This document shows positions 1 through 9,506 of a DNA stretch of 64,000 nucleotides, one piece after another. The position numbers and the translations under genes were made by a program. The notes under the pieces are model-generated. The model did not search any database. It was not told the DNA's origin and saw only the letters and a program-made list of their open reading frames with translations. How positions within the stretch are numbered: the first letter of the stretch is position 1; every line of letters begins with the position of its first letter. The DNA is taken from contig NZ_FQWQ01000004.1 in NCBI RefSeq assembly GCF_900129725.1, forward strand, positions 186,001 to 250,000. The letters are read 5' to 3'. Source of the DNA: Chryseolinea serpens. GTDB taxonomy: Bacteria > Bacteroidota > Bacteroidia > Cytophagales > Cyclobacteriaceae.

Positions 1-214
1 ACTGGTGAATAAAGGTGACCCGTGCGTCATCGCGGTCATCCAGTTTGTCCAGGATCGATGTATCGAATATAAAAACAGGAAGCACATCCTGGTTTTCTCT
101 CAACGCATGATACAACCCGGCATTGTCTTGCAGCCGAAGGTCCCTGCGGAACCAAAATAATGTTGTGGACGATGTGACCAGGGTGGCGGGAACTTCGAAT
201 AAGGCAGTCTTCAC
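1..214 (-). CDS. phrB: deoxyribodipyrimidine photolyase, N-terminal fragment (runs off window)
   Basis: Light-driven repair of UV-induced pyrimidine dimers (FAD cofactor). Only the first ~71 codons lie in the window. The frame contains FWFRRDLRLQDNAGLYHAL, then VLPVFIFD and a DARVTFIH-like stretch, which is the diagnostic start of the photolyase/cryptochrome alpha/beta domain. An in-frame TAG lies just upstream, and the first usable start after it is GTG at 214 (VKTALFE...). That gives about 22 residues before FWFRRDLRL, longer than the usual 5-8, so the exact start is uncertain. The gene lies 47 bp downstream of the serine hydrolase on the same strand, at the end of the CarH/carotenoid locus, which fits light-inducible expression (inference). 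Confidence 0.85.
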   Translation of the reverse strand, partial: MKTALFEVPATLVTSSTTLFWFRRDLRLQDNAGLYHALRENQDVLPVFIFDTSILDKLDDRDDARVTFIHQ

Positions 215-261
215 GAAATCATTTTTTCTCTAAACGTTCGATTGATCAAGTTGTTTGATTT

Positions 262-2043
262 TCATTTGCGCTTGGCTCTGAACGTGCCGTTGGGTTGAAT
301 GGAAACCAGTTCATTGGCTTTCCCCGTAGCATCTACCTCAAACCGGACCTGGAAACCTTCCAGTATTTTGATCTTGAATTCGTTGGGTTTGGTGGCGGCC
401 AGTTCGTATTCAGGTTGGCCGGGCACAAAGAGATAGAGTTTGGTGAGTTCCTTGATGTAAACACGGGCTACCTGCCCGCCGAAATCATAGTCACCCGTAT
501 AATTGGCCAGTGTGGGAGCAGCAACATCCAGCAATTGTAGCTTTCGTTTGAATTCAATGTCCTTCACGCTGGGCTCCAGGCGGATGTGGATCGCATCGAT
601 CGATCCATCCAGGCCGGTGATGAACTGGAATTTTTCGGATTGGAAATACTTTTTGCCGGTAGCCTGAAACACGTCGTAATGATAATGAGCAAGGTCAGTT
701 TTCAACCCATGCAAGTCGGCTTTCAAACTATTGCCCTCGGCGGTGATCTCCACCACGCCGTAGGCCGGGTGCTCGAATTTGCCGGCGAACGCTGCCAGGG
801 GGTGCGACGGTTTGGTGTCCTTCACACGGTGCAGATCGTCCTCTTCTTTCTTGACCCGGGCTTGCAGGTCCTTGTTCTTGTTTTCGTCGGCAAGAAGACG
901 TCCGTTCCAGTCGGTCAATGGGAGACCCAACATCCGATCCAGCACCTGGCTGCGGACAATCGCCGGCAACGGCGTGCCATTCATGTTGCTGAGCACGACC
1001 ACACCGATCGAGTCCTTTGGCAGGAAGCACGTGGATGCCGAAAAACCATCGATGTTCCCGCCGTGGTCCACGCGCACGTGGCCGCGGTAAGAAGTGATCA
1101 CCCAGCCCAATCCATAACTGTTGTAAAACGATTCGTCATAACGCACCGGTACTTCCACCGGAGTGGTCATGGTAGGCGTCTGAAGCTGACGTATGCTGTT
1201 TTCGGATAAAACTTTTTTGCCCTTGTAACGGCCGCCGTTGATGAGGGCAACCAGCCAGTGACTCATATCATCTGCACTGGAATTGATAGCGCCAGCCGGT
1301 CCCAGGGCATCGATGTTCATATAGGGGATAACTTTGACGGTATCGTTTTGGAGGCTGTAGCCCGTTGCAAAATCACGGGCTTGTTGCAAATCATTTACGG
1401 AGAAGTTGGTCGAGGTCATCTCCAGGGGAATCAGAAAGCGATCGCGTGTAAAGTCTTCCCACGATTGATGCGTCACCTGCCCGGCGACCATGCCCGCCAC
1501 CATAAACATGAGGTTTTGATATTGATAGGCAGTGCGAAAAGGTTTGCTGGGCTCGAGATACTGCAGTCGTTCATACAATTCCCGTCGCGAAAAGGGAGCA
1601 CCATACCAAAGCAAGTCATGTCGCGGCAAACCCGAACGGTGACAAAGCAGATCGCGCGAAGTAAGGTTGGCCGAAACATAGTCATCCTGTAATTTGAAAT
1701 CGGGTAGATAGTCGCGCACCGGTTTGTCCAATTCCAGCTTGCCTTCGTCCTCCAGCAGACACAGCCCCGCGGCCGTAAACGCCTTCGTACACGAACCGAT
1801 GGCGAAAAGGGTTTGGGGAGTAACCGGCAGCTTTTTTTCCTTGTCGCGATAGCCGTAGCCCTTCGACAACACGATTTTATTTTTGTAGACAATGGCCACC
1901 GAGACGCCCGGCACGCTCCAGTCGTGCATAACAGAGGCAACATATGCGTCGAATCCCTTCAATTTTTTGTCGAGCGCTTTGTTTTGGCCAAAAGCGATCG
2001 TGCCTGGCGTCGCCAGGAGCAGGAGGAATAAAACATGTCGCAT
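262..2043 (-). CDS. serine hydrolase, class C beta-lactamase-like family, exported
   Basis: A 593-residue secreted penicillin-binding-protein-fold hydrolase (peptidase S12/beta-lactamase C group). Residues 1-19 form a signal peptide ending before Q20. The S-x-x-K nucleophile motif is SCTK at S84-K87, the second motif Y-x-N is Y175-N177, and the third is HGG at about H327. The last ~110 residues form a beta-rich C-terminal domain of the DUF3471 type. Such proteins hydrolyse D-amino-acid peptides or esters; the substrate here cannot be told. It lies 57 bp downstream of idi on the same strand and may be read through from the carotenoid operon. The ATG at 2043 directly begins the signal peptide. 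Confidence 0.85.
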   Translation of the reverse strand: MRHVLFLLLLATPGTIAFGQNKALDKKLKGFDAYVASVMHDWSVPGVSVAIVYKNKIVLSKGYGYRDKEKKLPVTPQTLFAIGSCTKAFTAAGLCLLEDEGKLELDKPVRDYLPDFKLQDDYVSANLTSRDLLCHRSGLPRHDLLWYGAPFSRRELYERLQYLEPSKPFRTAYQYQNLMFMVAGMVAGQVTHQSWEDFTRDRFLIPLEMTSTNFSVNDLQQARDFATGYSLQNDTVKVIPYMNIDALGPAGAINSSADDMSHWLVALINGGRYKGKKVLSENSIRQLQTPTMTTPVEVPVRYDESFYNSYGLGWVITSYRGHVRVDHGGNIDGFSASTCFLPKDSIGVVVLSNMNGTPLPAIVRSQVLDRMLGLPLTDWNGRLLADENKNKDLQARVKKEEDDLHRVKDTKPSHPLAAFAGKFEHPAYGVVEITAEGNSLKADLHGLKTDLAHYHYDVFQATGKKYFQSEKFQFITGLDGSIDAIHIRLEPSVKDIEFKRKLQLLDVAAPTLANYTGDYDFGGQVARVYIKELTKLYLFVPGQPEYELAATKPNEFKIKILEGFQVRFEVDATGKANELVSIQPNGTFRAKRK

Positions 2044-2100
2044 ACGAGGGTGAGGGTTGGTCCTCTCCTAAAATAAGAAATTGACGTCGGTAAAGAAAGA

Positions 2101-2616
2101 TCAGGCTGCGATTTTGTTCAGCTCCGGATGCGTGAGGATGAGCTTGAACCAGGCCGTGTATGCCTCGGGATGCTGCTTCACGGCCTCGCGCAATTGGCCA
2201 AGGCTCATAAACTTCCAATCCTCCACCTCATCTTTGTTCACCACCGGTTCGCCGTCAAAGGTGCCCACGTAAACATGATCATATTCATGCTCCACGAGGT
2301 TGTTGTCGAGCGCTGCGCGATAAATGAATTTATAGGCAAACTCCGGTTGCAGATCGATGCCCATTTCTTCTTTCAAACGCCGGCGTGTGGCATCGGCCAT
2401 GGTTTCGTCCGGGAGGGGATGGCTGCAGCAGGTGTTGGTCCAGAGACGTGCGCTGTGGTATTTGGTGGAGGAGCGCTTCTGCAGCAAGAGCTCGCCCTTC
2501 GTGTTGAACAGGATAATGGAAAAAGCACGATGTAAAAGTCCCTTGCGGTGCGCTTCCATTTTTTCGAGGGTGCCCACAGCGTTGTCACGCTCATCGACGA
2601 GGATCACCTGTTCCAT
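2101..2616 (-). CDS. idi: isopentenyl-diphosphate delta-isomerase, type I
   Basis: Interconverts isopentenyl diphosphate and dimethylallyl diphosphate, supplying isoprenoid (carotenoid, quinone) synthesis in the cytoplasm. It is a 171-residue Nudix-fold protein. The catalytic cysteine lies in NTCCSHP (C63/C64), the acid in EHEYDHV (E109/E111), and the Nudix-like helix is RRRLKEEMGID. All key residues are present, so it looks functional. The preferred start is the ATG at 2616, which overlaps the upstream TGA as TGATG and indicates translational coupling to the crtI-crtB fusion ORF; an ATG three codons earlier (2625) is possible. Bacteroidota carotenoid operons often carry idi beside crtI/crtB. 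Confidence 0.93.
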   Translation of the reverse strand: MEQVILVDERDNAVGTLEKMEAHRKGLLHRAFSIILFNTKGELLLQKRSSTKYHSARLWTNTCCSHPLPDETMADATRRRLKEEMGIDLQPEFAYKFIYRAALDNNLVEHEYDHVYVGTFDGEPVVNKDEVEDWKFMSLGQLREAVKQHPEAYTAWFKLILTHPELNKIAA

Positions 2617-3104
2617 CAGAGCCAATTCAATTGATGTTTCACAAACGAATAGGCAAGGAGGGTGGCTTTCTGGGGTTTCGGTATACGAATGCGGCTGCGC
2701 ATAACCATGTGTGACGGCGTGTTCTTTATTTTTCTAAACAACGCAAGGTAATATACATACGCCACATAGACACCGAAACGGGCCGACCGGGGCAATTTTT
2801 TTATGCCTTTAACCGCTTCATCAAAATCCTTTCGGATACTGTCTTCAATTCGTTTTTTGCAGGGTTCGTCGAAGCGTTTGAGGTCCAGCCCCGGAAAATA
2901 CACGCGTCCCATCTCTGCATGATCGGCTTGCAGGTCGCGCAGAAAGTTTATTTTTTGAAAAGCAGCCCCCAACCGCATAGCTCTTCCCCCGGGAGAATCA
3001 TTTTTCTCCAGCACGGTAACATCAAACCGTGCTTCTGCCAAAAAACAAGCAGCCGAAATTCCAGAAAAGCCCGAACCGATAATGCCTATGCGGCGCTTCT
3101 TCAT
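2616..3104 (-). pseudogene. crtI-crtB deletion fusion (phytoene desaturase N-terminus joined to phytoene synthase C-terminus)
   Basis: A 162-residue ORF with two unrelated halves. Residues 1-41 are the FAD-binding N-terminus of a CrtI-type phytoene desaturase: MKKRRIGIIGSGFSG with GxGxxG, then VTVLEKN and SPGGRA. From residue 42 it becomes the C-terminal ~120 residues of CrtB phytoene synthase: MRLGAAFQKINFLRD, with the second Asp-rich motif N53-x2-R56-D57-x3-D61, then GRVYFPG and a CrtB-like helical tail. About 450 residues of CrtI and 160 of CrtB are missing. The join (about 2976-2984) is in frame. Neither half can be catalytic: the first CrtB Asp motif and almost all of CrtI are gone. The start is the ATG at 3104 after AGAGGGA. 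It is translationally coupled to idi. A missassembly cannot be excluded. Confidence 0.85.
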
Positions 3105-3155
3105 ATGAAGTCCCTCTCGGAAAATTAATGCAAGCTTCGCCGCAGGGCAAATCAA

Positions 3156-3656
3156 TTAATAACCATGCAGGCGCTTTTGAATTTCTTTTCGAGCGTGAAA
3201 GATCCTGTTTTTCACCGTGCCGATGGGAATGTTTAGATGGGCCGCAATCTCGTGATATTTATATCCGGTGGTGTGCATCTTGAAGGGCGTGAGCAACTCC
3301 TCTTTCAAATTATTCACATTGTTCCAGATCTCCCTGAATTCCATGCTCTCCTGCGGCCGGTTAAAAGTATGCTCTTCCTCCACATTCAGAAAGTAAAGAT
3401 CCTTGGTGGTGTCGTGTGAAGTTTTCGTGCGTTGATTTTTGCGATAGTTGTTGATGAACGTATTGCGCATAATGGTGAAAAGCCATCCCTTCAAATTCGT
3501 GTTGTCGCGAAACTTGTCGCGGTAGGTAAGCGCCTTCAGGATCGTGTCCTGAACGAGATCTAAAGACTCGTCCCGATCGTGTGTGAAGCGGCGTGTGAAG
3601 GTTTGAAGGGTGCTGCGCAATCCCGCTATCTCGTGGGTGAATTCAAGGGTTTTCAT
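3156..3656 (-). CDS. ECF-type RNA polymerase sigma factor of the carotenoid locus
   Basis: A 166-residue sigma-70 family protein with only regions 2 and 4. Region 2 spans about residues 10-75 (SLDLVQDTILKAL, then GWLFTIMRNTFINNYRK). Region 4 spans about 110-160 and ends in a helix-turn-helix (YHEIAAHLNIPIGTVKNRIFHARKEI). No anti-sigma gene is adjacent. It lies between the CarH-like regulator and the crt remnant, all on one strand; this CarH-sigma-crtI-crtB order is common in Bacteroidota. By analogy, CarH would repress this gene in the dark and the sigma factor would drive the crt operon in the light (inference). A 51-bp gap separates it from the fusion ORF. Confidence 0.88.
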   Translation of the reverse strand: MKTLEFTHEIAGLRSTLQTFTRRFTHDRDESLDLVQDTILKALTYRDKFRDNTNLKGWLFTIMRNTFINNYRKNQRTKTSHDTTKDLYFLNVEEEHTFNRPQESMEFREIWNNVNNLKEELLTPFKMHTTGYKYHEIAAHLNIPIGTVKNRIFHARKEIQKRLHGY

Positions 3657-3683
3657 TTGAATAGTGTTTAAGTAAAGGTGAAC

Positions 3684-3712
3684 TAAGTTTAAACAAACGG
3701 ACCCAGTGCAAA
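3684..3712 (-). promoter_or_regulatory. candidate promoter of the sigma factor gene
   Basis: Reading the minus strand there is TTTG (3709-3712), a 17-nt spacer and TAAACTTA (3684-3691), a partial match to the Bacteroidota -33 TTTG / -7 TAnnTTTG pattern. It lies about 30 bp before the sigma start codon and 19 bp downstream of the palindrome at 3731-3758. The -7 box deviates at two positions, so support is modest. Confidence 0.3.
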
Positions 3713-3730
3713 GAATTGACCAATAATTCT

Positions 3731-3758
3731 GTTTAATGTTAATATAGCGATATTAAAC
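3731..3758. promoter_or_regulatory. AT-rich palindrome, candidate CarH/MerR operator
   Basis: Between carH and the sigma gene lies a compact inverted repeat. The outer arms are GTTTAAT (3731-3737) and ATTAAAC (3752-3758). The inner perfect arms are TTAATAT (3739-3745) and ATATTAA (3750-3756) around AGCG. MerR-type regulators bind palindromes near the promoters they control, and this is the only such element in the 190-bp gap. Binding by the CarH-like protein is an inference. Confidence 0.45.
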
Positions 3759-3846
3759 AAAATTTCCAGATCAAATGGAATTTTCGCCTTTTACAAAAGC
3801 TGGAAAAGAGGGGTGATCAACCGGGATTAACCGGTGGGGGGAAGTA

Positions 3847-4713
3847 TTACAGAAACAGCCGAAGCTCGGTGGCCGTGGAAAAAGTCTGCACATTGGCGAC
3901 CTTTTGGCCTTTAAAACGCTGTATTTGGAGGCCGGAGACAAGAATGGGGGACATCGGAAAATCCTTTGTCAGGCGCAGTAAGTAGTCCTCCAGCGGCATG
4001 TTCAGGACCGAAGTGATGCTGCTGAGCAGAATGTTGGGCTGGTGCGCGGAATACACAGAAATGAGGTCCTCATGTGGAACATTTTGCCCAAGATAGTAGG
4101 TGCGATACCCGCTTTTCCGGGTAAGGAAATGGTAGAAAAGCAGGCCAAGTTCGTGCATCTCACCCTCGGGCAAAAAAAGCAGGATCTTCCGGGCGGATTT
4201 TGGAGGCAACGGCAGCCCGTCAATGGCCACAATGATCTTTTGCCGGATGAGGTTGGAAATGAAGTGCTCGTGGGCCGGCGTAATGTTATGCGTCTGCCAC
4301 AAAATGCCGATCTTCTCCAGGAACGGATAGATTATTTCTGTCACCGATTTTTCAAAGCCATAGCGCAGGATCAGGTTGTTCAGGATCTTCTCAAACAATT
4401 CCTCCTCCATATCGATCATGGCCACCACCAACTGGTCGATGTGCACCATCACGTCGTTGTTCAGTTCGCTTAGCTGCAGCACCTTGCGGTTCATGTCGTC
4501 AAGCGACATGTCGGCAATTTTGGAGATCTTGATGCCGTTGTTGTTGAGCAGCGAAACATTGATGATCTTTTTCAGATCTTCGTCCGAATAGAAGCGGATG
4601 TTGGTGGCCGTTCGGTTGGGGGCAATGATCTTGTGGCGCTTCTCCCAGATGCGGATGGTGTGTGCCTTGATTCCTGAAAGCTGTTCGAGTTCTTTTATAG
4701 AATATTTACCCAT
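3847..4713 (-). CDS. carH: CarH-like B12-dependent photoreceptor, MerR family repressor
   Basis: A 288-residue light-sensing transcription factor. Residues 3-70 are a MerR winged helix (YSIKELEQLSGIKAHTIRIW). Residues ~85-165 are the helical B12-binding bundle with the CarH hallmark W-x9-E-H (W139, E149, H150). Residues ~175-288 are a cobalamin-binding Rossmann domain with E-x-H-x2-G (E185, H187, G190), where the histidine ligates cobalt. In studied CarH proteins adenosylcobalamin promotes DNA binding in the dark and light breaks the tetramer. Both motifs are intact, so light sensing is probable. The start at 4713 (MGKYSIKELEQ) matches the family and follows AAAGG; an ATG at 4767 would add 18 unlikely residues. 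It is divergent from the helicase gene. Confidence 0.9.
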   Translation of the reverse strand: MGKYSIKELEQLSGIKAHTIRIWEKRHKIIAPNRTATNIRFYSDEDLKKIINVSLLNNNGIKISKIADMSLDDMNRKVLQLSELNNDVMVHIDQLVVAMIDMEEELFEKILNNLILRYGFEKSVTEIIYPFLEKIGILWQTHNITPAHEHFISNLIRQKIIVAIDGLPLPPKSARKILLFLPEGEMHELGLLFYHFLTRKSGYRTYYLGQNVPHEDLISVYSAHQPNILLSSITSVLNMPLEDYLLRLTKDFPMSPILVSGLQIQRFKGQKVANVQTFSTATELRLFL

Positions 4714-4793
4714 CGTCCAACCTTTACTCCCCTTTAACCGGCCCGTGCGGAAATTGTTTTTTGACAAGCGGGGAAATCATACTTTTATTCTTC

Positions 4794-7247
4794 ATGGCTC
4801 CTGATATTATAAAAATAGGAAAAGATTGGTTCACGTCCAGAGGATGGAAAGTGTTTCCTTTCCAGCAAGAAGCGTGGAAGGCCTACCTCAACGGCCAGCA
4901 CGGCCTGGTGAACGCGCCCACCGGCAGCGGAAAAACCTATTCGCTCATGGTGCCCTGTCTGCTGGAGTTTATCCGCGACCATCCCAACTTTGCCTCCCAA
5001 AAGAACAACGGACTGCAGGTGATCTGGATCACGCCCATCCGGGCACTTTCCAAAGAGATCGAGCTTTCCGGCAAACGCGTCATCGAAGGCCTGGGGTTGC
5101 CCTGGAAAGTGGGCGTGCGCTCGGGCGACACGTCGGTGAAAGAACGGGCAAAACAAAAAGAGAAACCTCCCGAATTGCTCATCACCACACCCGAAAGCCT
5201 GCACCTGCTGCTGGCCCAAAAAGGCTATCCCGAATTTTTCAAAAACCTCCGCGCCATCATCGCCGACGAGTGGCACGAACTGATGGGATCCAAACGCGGT
5301 GTGCAGGTGGAGCTTGCGCTTTCGCGATTGAAGACCATCTCGCCACACCTCAAAGTATGGGGCATCTCCGCCACCATCGGCAACATGGACCAGGCCCTGG
5401 AAGCGTTGCTGGGAAATTACTACCATGAAAAAAATTACACCATCGTCCGCTCCGCACTGGAAAAGAAGGTGGAAGTAGTTTCCCTCTTGCCTGAAACACT
5501 GGAGAAATTGCCGTGGGCGGGTCACTTGGGCATCCAACTCCTGCAGAAGGTCATCGACATTGTGAAGTCGAGTACGACCACACTCATCTTCACCAACACG
5601 CGCTCCTTTGCCGAGATCTGGTACCACCGCATGCTGGACAAAGCGCCGGAACTATCGGGGCTCATCGCCATGCATCACGGCTCCATCAGCCAGGAGATTC
5701 GAAATTGGGTGGAGGAACAACTGCACGAAGGGAAACTTAAAGCCGTGGTGTGCACCTCCAGCCTCGATCTGGGGGTTGACTTCCGGCCCGTGGAAACGGT
5801 CATCCAAGTGGGGGGGCCAAAAGGCGTGGCCCGGTTTCTCCAACGCGCCGGCCGCAGTGGCCACCAACCTGGCGCCACCAGCCGCATTTACTTTGTACCC
5901 ACCCATTCGCTCGAACTCATGGAAGCCGCCGCCATTCGCGAAGCCATCACGCGAAAGATCGTCGAAGACCGGCTGCCCTACATCCGCTCGTTCGACGTGC
6001 TCATCCAATACCTCGTGACCTTGGCGGTCTCCGATGGATTTTATCCCGATCAGATCTATGCGGAGATCAAAAACACCTTCTGCTATCAATCCGTTTCCGA
6101 AGACGAATGGCACTGGCTGCTGAATTTTATCACCACCGGTGGTGACTCGCTTCAGGCCTATGACGAATACCGCAAAGTGATCATCCTGCAGGGATTGTAC
6201 AAAGTAGATAACCGCATGATCGCCATGCGCCACCGCCTCTCGGTGGGCACCATCGTGGGCGACAGTTCACTGTTCGTGCGTTTTGTCTCGGGAAAATACC
6301 TGGGCACCATCGAAGAATATTTTATCTCGCGTCTCAATCCCGGCGATGTCTTTTGGTTTGCCGGCCGGAACCTGGAGCTGGTGCGCATCAAAGAGATGGA
6401 AGCGCAGGTGCGCAAGTCGAACAAGAAATCGGGTGCCGTGCCTTCCTGGCAAGGGGGACGCATGCCACTCTCCTCGCAAATGAGCGAGATGATCCGCGTG
6501 AAGTTAGACGAAGTAGTACGGGGTGTGGAGAAGGACGAGGAGTTGATTTTTTTAAGACCACTTTTTCAATTGCAAAAAGAGCGCTCTCACCTGCCGGCCA
6601 AAGACGAATTTCTCATCGAATATTTCAAAAGCTCCGAAGGCTATCACGTCCTCATGTACCCGTTCGAGGGACGCTTTGTACACGAAGGCATCGCCGCACT
6701 CATGGCCTACCGCATCGCGCAGATCCAACCGATCACCTTCTCGATCGCCATGAACGACTATGGCTTTGAATTGCTCTCTGACCAACCCATTCCCATCGAA
6801 GAAGCTGTGGAGACCAACGTGCTGGGAACGGACGATTTGCTGAAGGACATACAGGCCAGCATCAACTCCACCGAAATGGCCCGGCGTAAGTTCCGCGACA
6901 TCGCCGCCATATCGGGGCTGGTGTTCAAAGGCTATCCCGGCAAACCGGTGAAGGACCGGCACCTGCAATCTTCGTCACAACTGTTCTTCAACGTCTTCCA
7001 CGACTACGAGGCCCACAACCTGTTGCTGCAACAGGCATTTGAAGAAGTCATGGATTTTCAACTGGAGGAAGCCAGGTTGCGCAGGGCGTTGGAGCGCATC
7101 GCGCATCAAAAAATTATCATTACACGCCCCGTCATGCCCACACCCTTCGCCTTCCCCATCATGGTCGACCGCATGCGCGAGAAACTAACCTCCGAAAAAC
7201 TGGAAGACCGCATCAAGCGTATGGCCCTTCAGTTCGACGCAGACTAG
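4794..7247 (+). CDS. ligase-associated DNA damage response DEXH-box helicase (Lhr-like)
   Basis: An 817-residue superfamily-2 ATP-dependent DNA helicase of the Lhr group, in the branch that in Bacteroidota travels with an ATP-dependent DNA ligase, an MBL-fold exonuclease and PdeM. Walker A is APTGSGKT (about 41-48), the DEXH box reads DEWH near residue 157, motif III is SAT near 191, and motif VI is QRAGRSGHQPG near 349. A winged-helix and Lhr C-terminal region follow. The start at 4794 (MAPDIIKIGKDWF) is preferred; an upstream in-frame start at 4761 adds 11 residues unlike the family. No ligase or exonuclease gene is next to it, and pdeM lies downstream beyond a phosphate transporter on the other strand. 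Confidence 0.9.
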   Translation: MAPDIIKIGKDWFTSRGWKVFPFQQEAWKAYLNGQHGLVNAPTGSGKTYSLMVPCLLEFIRDHPNFASQKNNGLQVIWITPIRALSKEIELSGKRVIEGLGLPWKVGVRSGDTSVKERAKQKEKPPELLITTPESLHLLLAQKGYPEFFKNLRAIIADEWHELMGSKRGVQVELALSRLKTISPHLKVWGISATIGNMDQALEALLGNYYHEKNYTIVRSALEKKVEVVSLLPETLEKLPWAGHLGIQLLQKVIDIVKSSTTTLIFTNTRSFAEIWYHRMLDKAPELSGLIAMHHGSISQEIRNWVEEQLHEGKLKAVVCTSSLDLGVDFRPVETVIQVGGPKGVARFLQRAGRSGHQPGATSRIYFVPTHSLELMEAAAIREAITRKIVEDRLPYIRSFDVLIQYLVTLAVSDGFYPDQIYAEIKNTFCYQSVSEDEWHWLLNFITTGGDSLQAYDEYRKVIILQGLYKVDNRMIAMRHRLSVGTIVGDSSLFVRFVSGKYLGTIEEYFISRLNPGDVFWFAGRNLELVRIKEMEAQVRKSNKKSGAVPSWQGGRMPLSSQMSEMIRVKLDEVVRGVEKDEELIFLRPLFQLQKERSHLPAKDEFLIEYFKSSEGYHVLMYPFEGRFVHEGIAALMAYRIAQIQPITFSIAMNDYGFELLSDQPIPIEEAVETNVLGTDDLLKDIQASINSTEMARRKFRDIAAISGLVFKGYPGKPVKDRHLQSSSQLFFNVFHDYEAHNLLLQQAFEEVMDFQLEEARLRRALERIAHQKIIITRPVMPTPFAFPIMVDRMREKLTSEKLEDRIKRMALQFDAD

Positions 7248-7282
7248 CGGACGAATGCGGCGAACGAATAGAATACGACGAT

Positions 7283-8695
7283 CTAAAAAATGGAGCGGAA
7301 CACGAGGAACAGGGTGCCCGCCATGATCATCACCACAGGCAACGTGAGGAACCACGCGATGAGAATATTGCGCACCGTATCGGGCTGCAGGTTCTTCACA
7401 CCGCGGTTGGCCACCATGCTACCGGCGATACCCGACGACAACACGTGCGTGGTGCTTACCGGCAATCCGAAATAAGATGACAAGCCAATGGTGCTGGCCG
7501 CAACAAGTTCGGCACTGGCGCCCTGGGCATAGGTGAGATGTTCTTTGCCGATCTTTTCGCCCACGGTTTTCACAATGCGTTTCCAACCGATCATCGTGCC
7601 AAGCCCCAGCGACAGCGAGATCATGAGCAGTACCCAGGTAGGGGAGTAGTCGGTGGCCTTGCGGACACTCTTAAGTTCGTCTTTCAATGATTTCTTTTCG
7701 GCCTCGCTGAGCTTTACATCTTCTTTTTTCGAGAGGGACGTGAGCTCGCGATCCATGATCATGATGTCTTTTCTTACCTGGAAACGCTCAGTTTTCGGTA
7801 TATCACGAATGTCACTGAGCGTGGCAAAGCGCTGCTGCAGCCGGGCATTGATCTGTTTAGCCTCGAGTAAATTATGACGATCGGAGAGAGACAAGTGGGA
7901 AGAGTCGATACTGGAAATGACCTGTTCGATCTTGGTAAGCGACCCGGGTAACTTGCTAGGAGAAAAGGATTCATCCAGGGCAAAATATGCGGGCACTACG
8001 CCAATGAGAATGAGCATGATCAGACCCACGCCTTTCTGACCGTCGTTGGAGCCATGAAAAAAGCTGACGAGCGAACAGGTAAGCACCAATATGCTCCGGA
8101 TCCAAAGCGGCGGTGGCTGATTTTTCTTGGGCTCCTTAAAGAGGCTGTCGCCATAGGAAGTCTTTTTTGTAAACGTTCGGATCAGGTACATCAAAATGAT
8201 GGTCATCGAAAAACCGAACAAAGGGGAGATCAATAAGGAAATCCCGATCTCTTGCGCCTTTCCCCAATTCACGGCATCGCCGGAAGCTTCGGGCAAAAGA
8301 GAATAGGCCAACCCGACCCCGAGAATGGAACCGATCAGCGTATGCGAACTGGAGCACGGAATGCCAAAGTACCAGGTCAGTAAGTTCCAGAAAATGGCTG
8401 TGATCAACAAGGCCATGACCATCGACAAGCTATGGGCGATATTTTGATCGACCAGCGTCTCCACGGGCAACAGGTTTATGATGCCCACGGCCACGGCAAT
8501 ACCGCCCCAGAAGACACCAATAAAATTGCAGAAACCCGACCAGATCACGGCCACCCAGGGCTTTAGTGAATTGGTATAGATTACCGTAGCAACGGCATTG
8601 GCCGTATCATGAAAACCATTGACAAATTCGAAGGAGCAGGCAGCAATAAGGCAAATGATAAGCAGGGCTGAGTACGCGAAGTCTAATTCGAACAT
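7283..8695 (-). CDS. pit: inorganic phosphate transporter, PiT family
   Basis: A 470-residue inner-membrane low-affinity phosphate permease coupled to cations. Both halves of the inverted PiT repeat are present: GFHDTANAVATVIYT near residue 27, and a second signature in SAELVAASTIGLSSYFGLPVSTTH toward the C-terminus. The conserved GSNDGQKGVG lies near residue 215. A charged cytoplasmic loop of about 90 residues (roughly 250-340) separates two membrane blocks, as in other long bacterial PiT proteins. No PhoU-like gene (the usual DUF47 partner) is adjacent. The gene is convergent with the helicase and divergent from pdeM, and so separates two genes that are usually neighbours. Confidence 0.93.
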   Translation of the reverse strand: MFELDFAYSALLIICLIAACSFEFVNGFHDTANAVATVIYTNSLKPWVAVIWSGFCNFIGVFWGGIAVAVGIINLLPVETLVDQNIAHSLSMVMALLITAIFWNLLTWYFGIPCSSSHTLIGSILGVGLAYSLLPEASGDAVNWGKAQEIGISLLISPLFGFSMTIILMYLIRTFTKKTSYGDSLFKEPKKNQPPPLWIRSILVLTCSLVSFFHGSNDGQKGVGLIMLILIGVVPAYFALDESFSPSKLPGSLTKIEQVISSIDSSHLSLSDRHNLLEAKQINARLQQRFATLSDIRDIPKTERFQVRKDIMIMDRELTSLSKKEDVKLSEAEKKSLKDELKSVRKATDYSPTWVLLMISLSLGLGTMIGWKRIVKTVGEKIGKEHLTYAQGASAELVAASTIGLSSYFGLPVSTTHVLSSGIAGSMVANRGVKNLQPDTVRNILIAWFLTLPVVMIMAGTLFLVFRSIF

Positions 8696-8861
8696 AAACC
8701 TTTTATTCCGTGTGCAATCTAGGGTGAATTCCTGTCCACAATGTTACCCGAATGTTAACTTTTTTTTCTGAAAACCTTTAAAATACTCGCATTTGGCTGG
8801 TTTTCAGAAGATTGGGAAAGCTTATGGGGATTAATTTTTGATTTGCTAGATTGACCCGGTC

Positions 8862-9506
8862 ATGGAAATGGAGATTTTAGGAGAGCGCCTCAGACTATAC
8901 CCCCAAAAGGCAGTTTTTTGGCCCGGAAAGGAGATACTTTTTATTGCCGATCTGCACGTGGGTAAAATCAATCACTTTCGCCGGTCGGGCATACCCCTGC
9001 CGGTAAAGGCCAACGACCGCAACATCGAACTGCTAATGGACCTCATCCAGGCCACTCACCCCAAGCGGGTCATTTGCCTGGGCGATCTTTTTCATAGCCA
9101 TTATAACCCCGAATGGGAAGTATTTGGGGAGGTGGTGAAACATTTCAGCCACATCTCTTTCGAATTGGTCATGGGCAACCACGACATCATGAGCGAGATC
9201 CAATACAGCCGCAAAGGCATCCTGCTCCACGACGAGCTCCGCATCGACCCCTTCATCTTTACACACCATCCGATGGAGGAGGTAGAGGAGGGGGCCTACA
9301 ATCTTGCCGGCCATATCCATCCCGGGGTCAGCCTGAGAGGCAAGGGCAGACAATCGCTGACACTGCCATGTTTTTATTTCGGATCTTGCGCCGGTCTGTT
9401 GCCCGCCTTCGGGATGTTTACGGGCCTGGCACGCATCCATCCGAAGAAGGACGACAACGTGTTTATTATTTTGGAAGATAAAATAATGAAGGTAAATCCA
9501 TCCTGA
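8862..9506 (+). CDS. pdeM: ligase-associated DNA damage response endonuclease PdeM (metallophosphoesterase)
   Basis: A 214-residue calcineurin-like phosphoesterase. The dinuclear metal ligands are all visible: D30 and H32 in ADLHVGK, D75 in CLGDLFH, N106/H107 in MGNHD, H135 in FTHHP, and H151/H153 in GHIHPG. The early K-x-NHFR segment after DLHVGK is typical of the PdeM branch. PdeM is considered part of the ligase/exonuclease/helicase repair set in Bacteroidota and Proteobacteria. The helicase is 1.6 kb upstream on the same strand, separated by the PiT gene. It is followed after 23 bp by the capA-like gene, probably co-transcribed. Confidence 0.85.
   Translation: MEMEILGERLRLYPQKAVFWPGKEILFIADLHVGKINHFRRSGIPLPVKANDRNIELLMDLIQATHPKRVICLGDLFHSHYNPEWEVFGEVVKHFSHISFELVMGNHDIMSEIQYSRKGILLHDELRIDPFIFTHHPMEEVEEGAYNLAGHIHPGVSLRGKGRQSLTLPCFYFGSCAGLLPAFGMFTGLARIHPKKDDNVFIILEDKIMKVNPS

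Follow-up and report, generated by a model that had tools for sequence, protein, structure and literature searches.

A crtI–crtB deletion remnant beside a CarH-like regulator in Chryseolinea serpens, and a dyad shared with a second carotenoid cluster

In the genome of Chryseolinea serpens, one short open reading frame begins as CrtI, ends as CrtB and lies between native idi and the genes for an ECF-type sigma factor and a CarH-like regulator, raising the question of what this frame represents and what the regulator beside it may still control. An earlier note on the same 64,000-nt stretch of DNA, here called the window, had proposed that ~1.8 kb were deleted in frame, fusing the start of crtI to the end of crtB, and that light regulation is retained without its pigment enzymes. 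We compared the locus with related genomes, searched the genome of origin for further carotenoid genes and surveyed a dyad found upstream of the sigma factor gene. Table 1 lists the coordinates of the features discussed.

Table 1 Features of the fusion locus and positions of the dyad
Feature	Position	Strand	Remark
Native idi (isopentenyl-diphosphate isomerase)	window 2101..2616	-	dN/dS 0.046 to G001
crtI'-'crtB fusion ORF	window 2616..3104	-	162 aa from ATG
CrtB part of fusion	window 2619-2978, then stop	-	last 120 CrtB residues
Deletion junction	window 2976..2984	-	GCT Ala codon at 2979-2981
CrtI part of fusion	window 2979-3104	-	CrtI residues 1-42
ECF-type sigma factor	window 3156..3656	-	full-length ORF; dN/dS 0.010 to G001
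Dyad TGTTTAA-N17-TTAAACA, predicted operator	window 3665..3695	.	upstream of sigma
Dyad TGTTTAA-N16-TTAAACA, predicted operator	window 3730..3759	.	upstream of sigma
CarH-like MerR regulator, B12-binding domains	window 3847..4710	-	W-x9-EH and E-x-H-x2-G present
Loose dyad	C2 15222-15251		141 nt upstream of C2 crtI; one mismatch to full dyad

Make-up of the fusion and the underlying deletion

Profile searches (Pfam, NCBIfam) match NAD(P)/FAD-binding and CrtI models to the N-terminus of the fusion ORF and assign the rest to positions 140–262 of the 263 in the squalene/phytoene synthase model (60.2 bits, Pfam cut-off 26). Read from an upstream TTG instead of the ATG, the ORF comprises 179 residues. 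The proposed joining of a crtI start to a crtB end is borne out, with 42 CrtI residues followed in frame by the last 120 of CrtB; the N-x2-R-D-x3-D motif claimed for the CrtB C-terminus is present as NFLRDLQAD, and the switch placed at SPGGRA/MRLGAAFQ matches the codon-level join GGA AGA GCT / ATG CGG. Despite its score above the Pfam cut-off, the fusion covers only part of the CrtB/squalene–phytoene synthase domain, and it reaches 33.1 bits, over profile positions 3–40 of 504, on the full-length model crtI_fam (cut-off 238.1). The NCBIfam cut-offs for CrtB are uninformative for the fusion, as a full-length CrtB encoded on contig C2 (see below) reaches none of them either. A full CrtB domain includes a first aspartate-rich motif. 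Because this motif and nearly all of CrtI are absent, the fusion product should be catalytically dead.

As a reference for the deletion we used the syntenic locus of G001, a genome of the same genus, in which both crtI and crtB are intact; an alignment with close relatives had been proposed in the earlier note. Window positions 1–2981 and 2986–9000 align to two G001 blocks that lie ~1.85 kb apart, and the interval between these blocks contains the missing parts of both genes. The missing DNA amounts to 1,845 nt on G001 coordinates, a multiple of 3 and in agreement with the ~1.8 kb proposed before. At codon level, the loss takes 455 codons from crtI together with its stop, then a 3-nt gap, and finally the codons for the first 158 residues of CrtB. 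Counted on G001, the fusion retains 42 of the 497 residues of CrtI and 120 of the 278 of CrtB. Fusion and deletion are read directly from the sequence. Protein identity to the syntenic G001 genes is 85% in the CrtI part and 90% in the CrtB part. In G001, crtI and crtB occupy a common reading frame, and consequently any deletion of a multiple of 3 fuses both. Residue 42 of the CrtI part, the junction Ala, is ambiguous in origin; because its GCT codon has the counterparts GCA on the crtI side and GCC on the crtB side of G001, a microhomology of 2–3 nt is possible. A repeat scan of the present sequence near the junction yielded one 14-nt pair, both copies of which lie within the CrtB side.

The genes for the sigma factor and the CarH-like protein lie upstream of the fusion, whose TGA overlaps the ATG of idi (TGATG). 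The deletion left the frames of idi, the sigma factor and CarH open and this coupling in place, as had been stated earlier. W-x9-EH and E-x-H-x2-G are motifs of CarH/LitR photoreceptors, and the CarH-like protein combines both with the MerR helix-turn-helix and B12-binding domains expected of that family. Its B12-binding_2 domain scores over the cut-off and its B12-binding domain below (23.5 bits, cut-off 32.1); on the NCBIfam CarH equivalog it reaches 92.6 bits, below the cut-off of 400. A search of the genome at E 1e-5 returned no other CarH-like gene that encodes a B12 domain.

Native crtZ-like and crtYcd genes survive ~10 kb from the fusion, just beyond the window (C4:177447-178688), with dN/dS values to G001 near 0.09 and near 0.06, respectively. 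Among the native carotenoid genes examined, crtI and crtB are the only losses, as idi, the crtZ-like gene and crtYcd remain. A photolyase-like gene (L160 12889-14214), scoring below NCBIfam cut-offs, has the gene downstream of idi on one side and native crtZ-like/crtYcd on the other, as expected for a light-response neighbourhood. The gene downstream of idi itself (window 262-2043), which we take to be of serine-hydrolase type, has a dS of 1.5 to G001 compared with 0.41–0.61 in five neighbours, which may point to a separate history, for example through recombination.

Occurrence and age of the fusion

We searched 59 genomes including the source genome. A match was obtained in 54 of the 58 others, and the CrtB-matching frames in these relatives all have at least 278 residues; full-size crtI and crtB ORFs are present in all five other genus members examined. 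We then inspected a further set, the best 80 loci among the matches listed in a database search, many of which show no CrtI match to the short fusion query. The fusion was found neither in the 58 relatives nor among these 80 loci, and the family of conserved short ORFs in many genomes that the earlier note had weighed against its own reading appeared in neither set. Short CrtB matches occur at three of the 80 loci (L060, L078 and L087). The matches at L068, L081, L122 and L137 seemed to extend into the CrtI part and were considered as a conserved fusion family; upon alignment they proved to be ordinary CrtB or CrtI running past the true match and were rejected. Since the relatives and the further loci are without any fusion, we regard it as derived and, across the 58 relatives and best 80 further loci, so far unique.

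Compared with G001, the CrtI part of the fusion has a dN/dS of 0.090 and the CrtB part one of 0.110; for the intact pair G001–G002 the corresponding values are 0.057 and 0.107. We find no clear relaxation in these values, the CrtI part being slightly higher than in G001–G002 on 41 codons only, and no stop codon inside the ORF. Replacements specific to the source genome number 3 of 41 in the CrtI part and 4 of 121 in the CrtB part (G001: 0 and 4). Residue 26 of the fusion is Arg, whereas 81 of 82 CrtI sequences have Gly at this position and none has Arg. Residues of the CrtB part were considered as unusual and dismissed, since intact G001 CrtB also carries residues shared with one other of 115. 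The GC3 of the fusion is 50.0, that of the same codons 58.6 in G001 and 56.2 in G002, with few polarised changes.

The codons of the fusion appear to have decayed little, which fits a recent deletion and equally a retained ORF. A long-standing deletion should have let stops and replacements accumulate, and therefore either the deletion is recent or the frame is constrained. A recent deletion is favoured because no other genome examined has the fusion and the host has other enzymes; a young fossil is the most likely reading of the fusion.

A second carotenoid cluster and a common dyad

The whole-genome search for crtI, crtB and crtZ suggested in the earlier note led to a second carotenoid cluster on contig C2, which comprises full-length crtI (499 aa) and crtB (278 aa), idi, a 152-aa gene, a crtZ-like gene in addition to the native one, and crtYcd with a lycopene cyclase domain. 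The C2 crtZ-like gene, which we presume to be such from its histidine motifs, and the 152-aa gene are without a Pfam match at 1e-5. C2 CrtI passes crtI_fam with about 429 bits (428.8–429.1, cut-off 238.1) and CrtID with 730.2 bits (cut-off 640); C2 CrtB scores 140.5 bits on the Pfam model (cut-off 26) and reaches no NCBIfam cut-off. The C2 copies show protein identities of only 66% (CrtB) and 70% (CrtI). The claim that light regulation persists here without pigment enzymes fails, since full-length crtI and crtB are found in the C2 cluster and native crtZ-like and crtYcd also remain.

The GC content of the first 17 kb of C2 is 35.5–44.9% per kb compared with 51% in the window and 51.5% in C2 20–40 kb, and GC3 is 42–48 in the C2 crt genes compared with 63–72 in native idi, sigma, carH, crtZ-like and crtYcd. 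In a CrtI tree of 84 rows, some of them long-branched (L087 most) and with native CrtI of the source genome absent, C2 CrtI is placed outside the clade of G001–G005 (support 99/89), as a weakly supported sister of that clade (89/50). Because of its low GC and the position of its CrtI outside the genus clade, the C2 cluster was probably acquired; both observations favour acquisition over recent duplication, and the weak placement leaves room for C2 CrtI as an old paralog. Low GC alone is no proof of acquisition, because G001 contains an 82% match to a gene (L011 476-3759) of the low-GC stretch. About 3 kb beside the C2 crt cluster (L011 7317-10388) recur near the start of contig C7 (L162 2617-5657) with 93% identity; the first 99 bases of the C2 and C7 contigs are 99% identical, and both contig starts are low in GC.

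The dyad TGTTTAA-N16-TTAAACA upstream of the sigma factor gene is kept with at most two mismatches in 9 aligned genomes. A loose form, TGTTTAA-N14-18-TAAACA, is found three times in the genome of 8.36 Mb, twice before the sigma factor gene and once before C2 crtI. Like the full-length genes and the low GC of C2, this dyad common to both loci is seen in the sequence itself. The number of dyads is not enriched genome-wide: a backward control gave 1+1 matches (one per strand) in the source genome, and in several of 8 genomes this control yielded at least the real dyad count. The position of the dyad, not the number of sites, is telling.

We tallied the dyad, with at most one mismatch and within 800 nt upstream of crtI, at 62 of the best 80 loci. 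The remaining 18 were omitted: one yielded no crtI, and at the other 17 the crtI match started after the first 15 residues or the upstream sequence was shorter than 800 nt. Where a sigma factor gene, a CarH gene or both lie near crtI, the dyad is present at 22 of 27 loci and absent from the other 5; where neither does, it is present at 2 of 35. Fisher's test gives p = 5e-10, a value that overstates the significance because nine of these 27 loci group in a single close clade of the CrtI tree. The spacer peaks sharply at N16, with at most 3 for any other spacer from 8 to 26, and shuffle controls gave a mean of 0/27 (20 shuffles) and 0/2000 for the C2 upstream region. Broken down by regulator, the dyad is found at 20/24 loci with sigma and 12/16 with CarH. 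Because the sigma counts at least match the CarH counts, the tally is silent on which protein binds the dyad.

Dyad symmetry is usual for MerR proteins, as described in the available passages of PMC8156234, and the symmetry of the dyad here leads us to infer a trans action of CarH on C2. Through the predicted operator, the C2 cluster is probably controlled by the retained CarH (or the sigma factor). The ECF sigma factor or another regulator is a possible binder of the dyad. A limited literature search, a thin basis for novelty, returned no description of a CarH operator for Bacteroidota.

Dyads also occur elsewhere. In the genus member G004, a second crtB (L046 421-1432, G004:C256) has a dyad ~146 nt upstream, and its 7.3-kb contig contains no crtI match. 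In G021, a dyad (L173 1501-1530 = G021:C2:51329-51358) lies directly upstream of a rhodopsin gene (L173 752-1492, minus strand) that is followed by a lycopene cyclase gene, which suggests a wider light regulon. A G001 dyad at C1:5937448 falls within an ORF and is probably a chance match.

Proposed history, alternatives and known systems

We consider it likely that the fusion is a young remnant of native crtI–crtB that arose after the gain of the C2 cluster, and that CarH and the sigma factor were kept for idi and the C2 operon. We infer acquisition, order of events, CarH as dyad binder and every functional step as follows. The complete carotenoid cluster of contig C2 would have entered the genome as a second set, and native phytoene synthase and desaturase would thereby have become dispensable. 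One in-frame deletion, possibly at 2–3 nt of microhomology, would then have removed most of crtI and crtB. The CarH-like photoreceptor and the ECF sigma factor would have been kept as their targets remain, idi in cis and the C2 crt operon in trans, the latter reached through the dyad common to both promoters. In the dark, B12-bound CarH would repress both promoters; in the light, CarH would be released and the C2 enzymes would make pigment. More tentative, and in our judgement just short of probable, is the broader proposal that across Bacteroidota CarH-like B12 photoreceptors act through the palindromic operator TGTTTAA-N16-TTAAACA, that mobile crt clusters carry it, that a host can in this way discard its pigment genes and keep the regulator, and that this genome, with its fresh remnant, was caught in mid-process.

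A constrained frame could instead reflect a translated leader, in which ribosomes crossing the fusion start idi via TGATG, so that selection would act on the open frame and not on its product. The stop–start overlap with idi, the deletion length divisible by 3, the absence of stops together with low dN/dS in the fusion, and the constraint on native idi (Table 1) all speak for this role; however, because crtI and crtB of G001 already share a frame, one in three random deletions would have the same effect, the observed constraint relates to the entire branch and may predate the deletion, and C2 carries a second idi. We therefore regard a leader as unlikely. Selection on the 162-residue protein itself, with a new function such as prenyl diphosphate binding or pairing with C2 CrtB/CrtI, would agree with the open ORF, the kept NFLRDLQAD motif and a dN/dS of 0.09–0.11, but most of both enzymes is gone, the nearly invariant Gly26 has become Arg, and the fusion is absent from the 58 relatives (54 with a match) and the best 80 further loci, which makes such a function very improbable. 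Equally little credence is due to a misjoining of crtI and crtB reads: the genome is in 10 contigs and the join is known from the assembly alone, yet both flanks are collinear with G001, and the C2 copies, at the protein identities given above, are too distant for a collapse.

With the young remnant as the preferred reading, the fusion itself is an ordinary deletion product of modest interest. Its setting is useful, as pathway genes have apparently been replaced by another set with the local photoreceptor and sigma factor kept. The dyad common to both loci provides a testable prediction, namely of the way in which an acquired cluster can come under the control of a resident light switch, and as a candidate CarH operator for Bacteroidota it is a more useful lead than the fusion. 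If true, mobile crt clusters carrying the operator would plug into a resident light switch.

The halves of the fusion are pieces of Bacteroidota CrtI (phytoene desaturase) and CrtB (phytoene synthase) at the syntenic locus and, unlike these, neither should work as an enzyme. The order of CrtI followed by CrtB in one polypeptide is also that of the trifunctional thraustochytrid fusion CrtIBY, which, according to the available part of PMC10016063, makes beta-carotene as the sole pathway of its host; unlike CrtIBY, the fusion described here is small and arose by deletion. PMC2889829 describes how carotenoid genes are transferred horizontally and lost differentially, and this pattern of gain and loss resembles the history proposed here, whereas the available passages of that paper contain neither an in-frame remnant nor a shared operator. 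For Chryseobacterium, light-induced carotenoids are reported and a LitR-like regulator is speculated on in PMC7064467, in whose available passages the word "operator" is absent. Like the CarH/LitR B12 photoreceptors and Streptomyces LitR–LitS, as far as they are described in the available passages of PMC8156234 and PMC12705666, the regulator here combines MerR and B12-binding domains and its gene adjoins those of an ECF sigma factor and crt genes. Unlike published CarH operators, which consist of three or four 11-bp direct repeats (nAnnTnnACAn) in the same passages of PMC8156234, the operator predicted here is a dyad.
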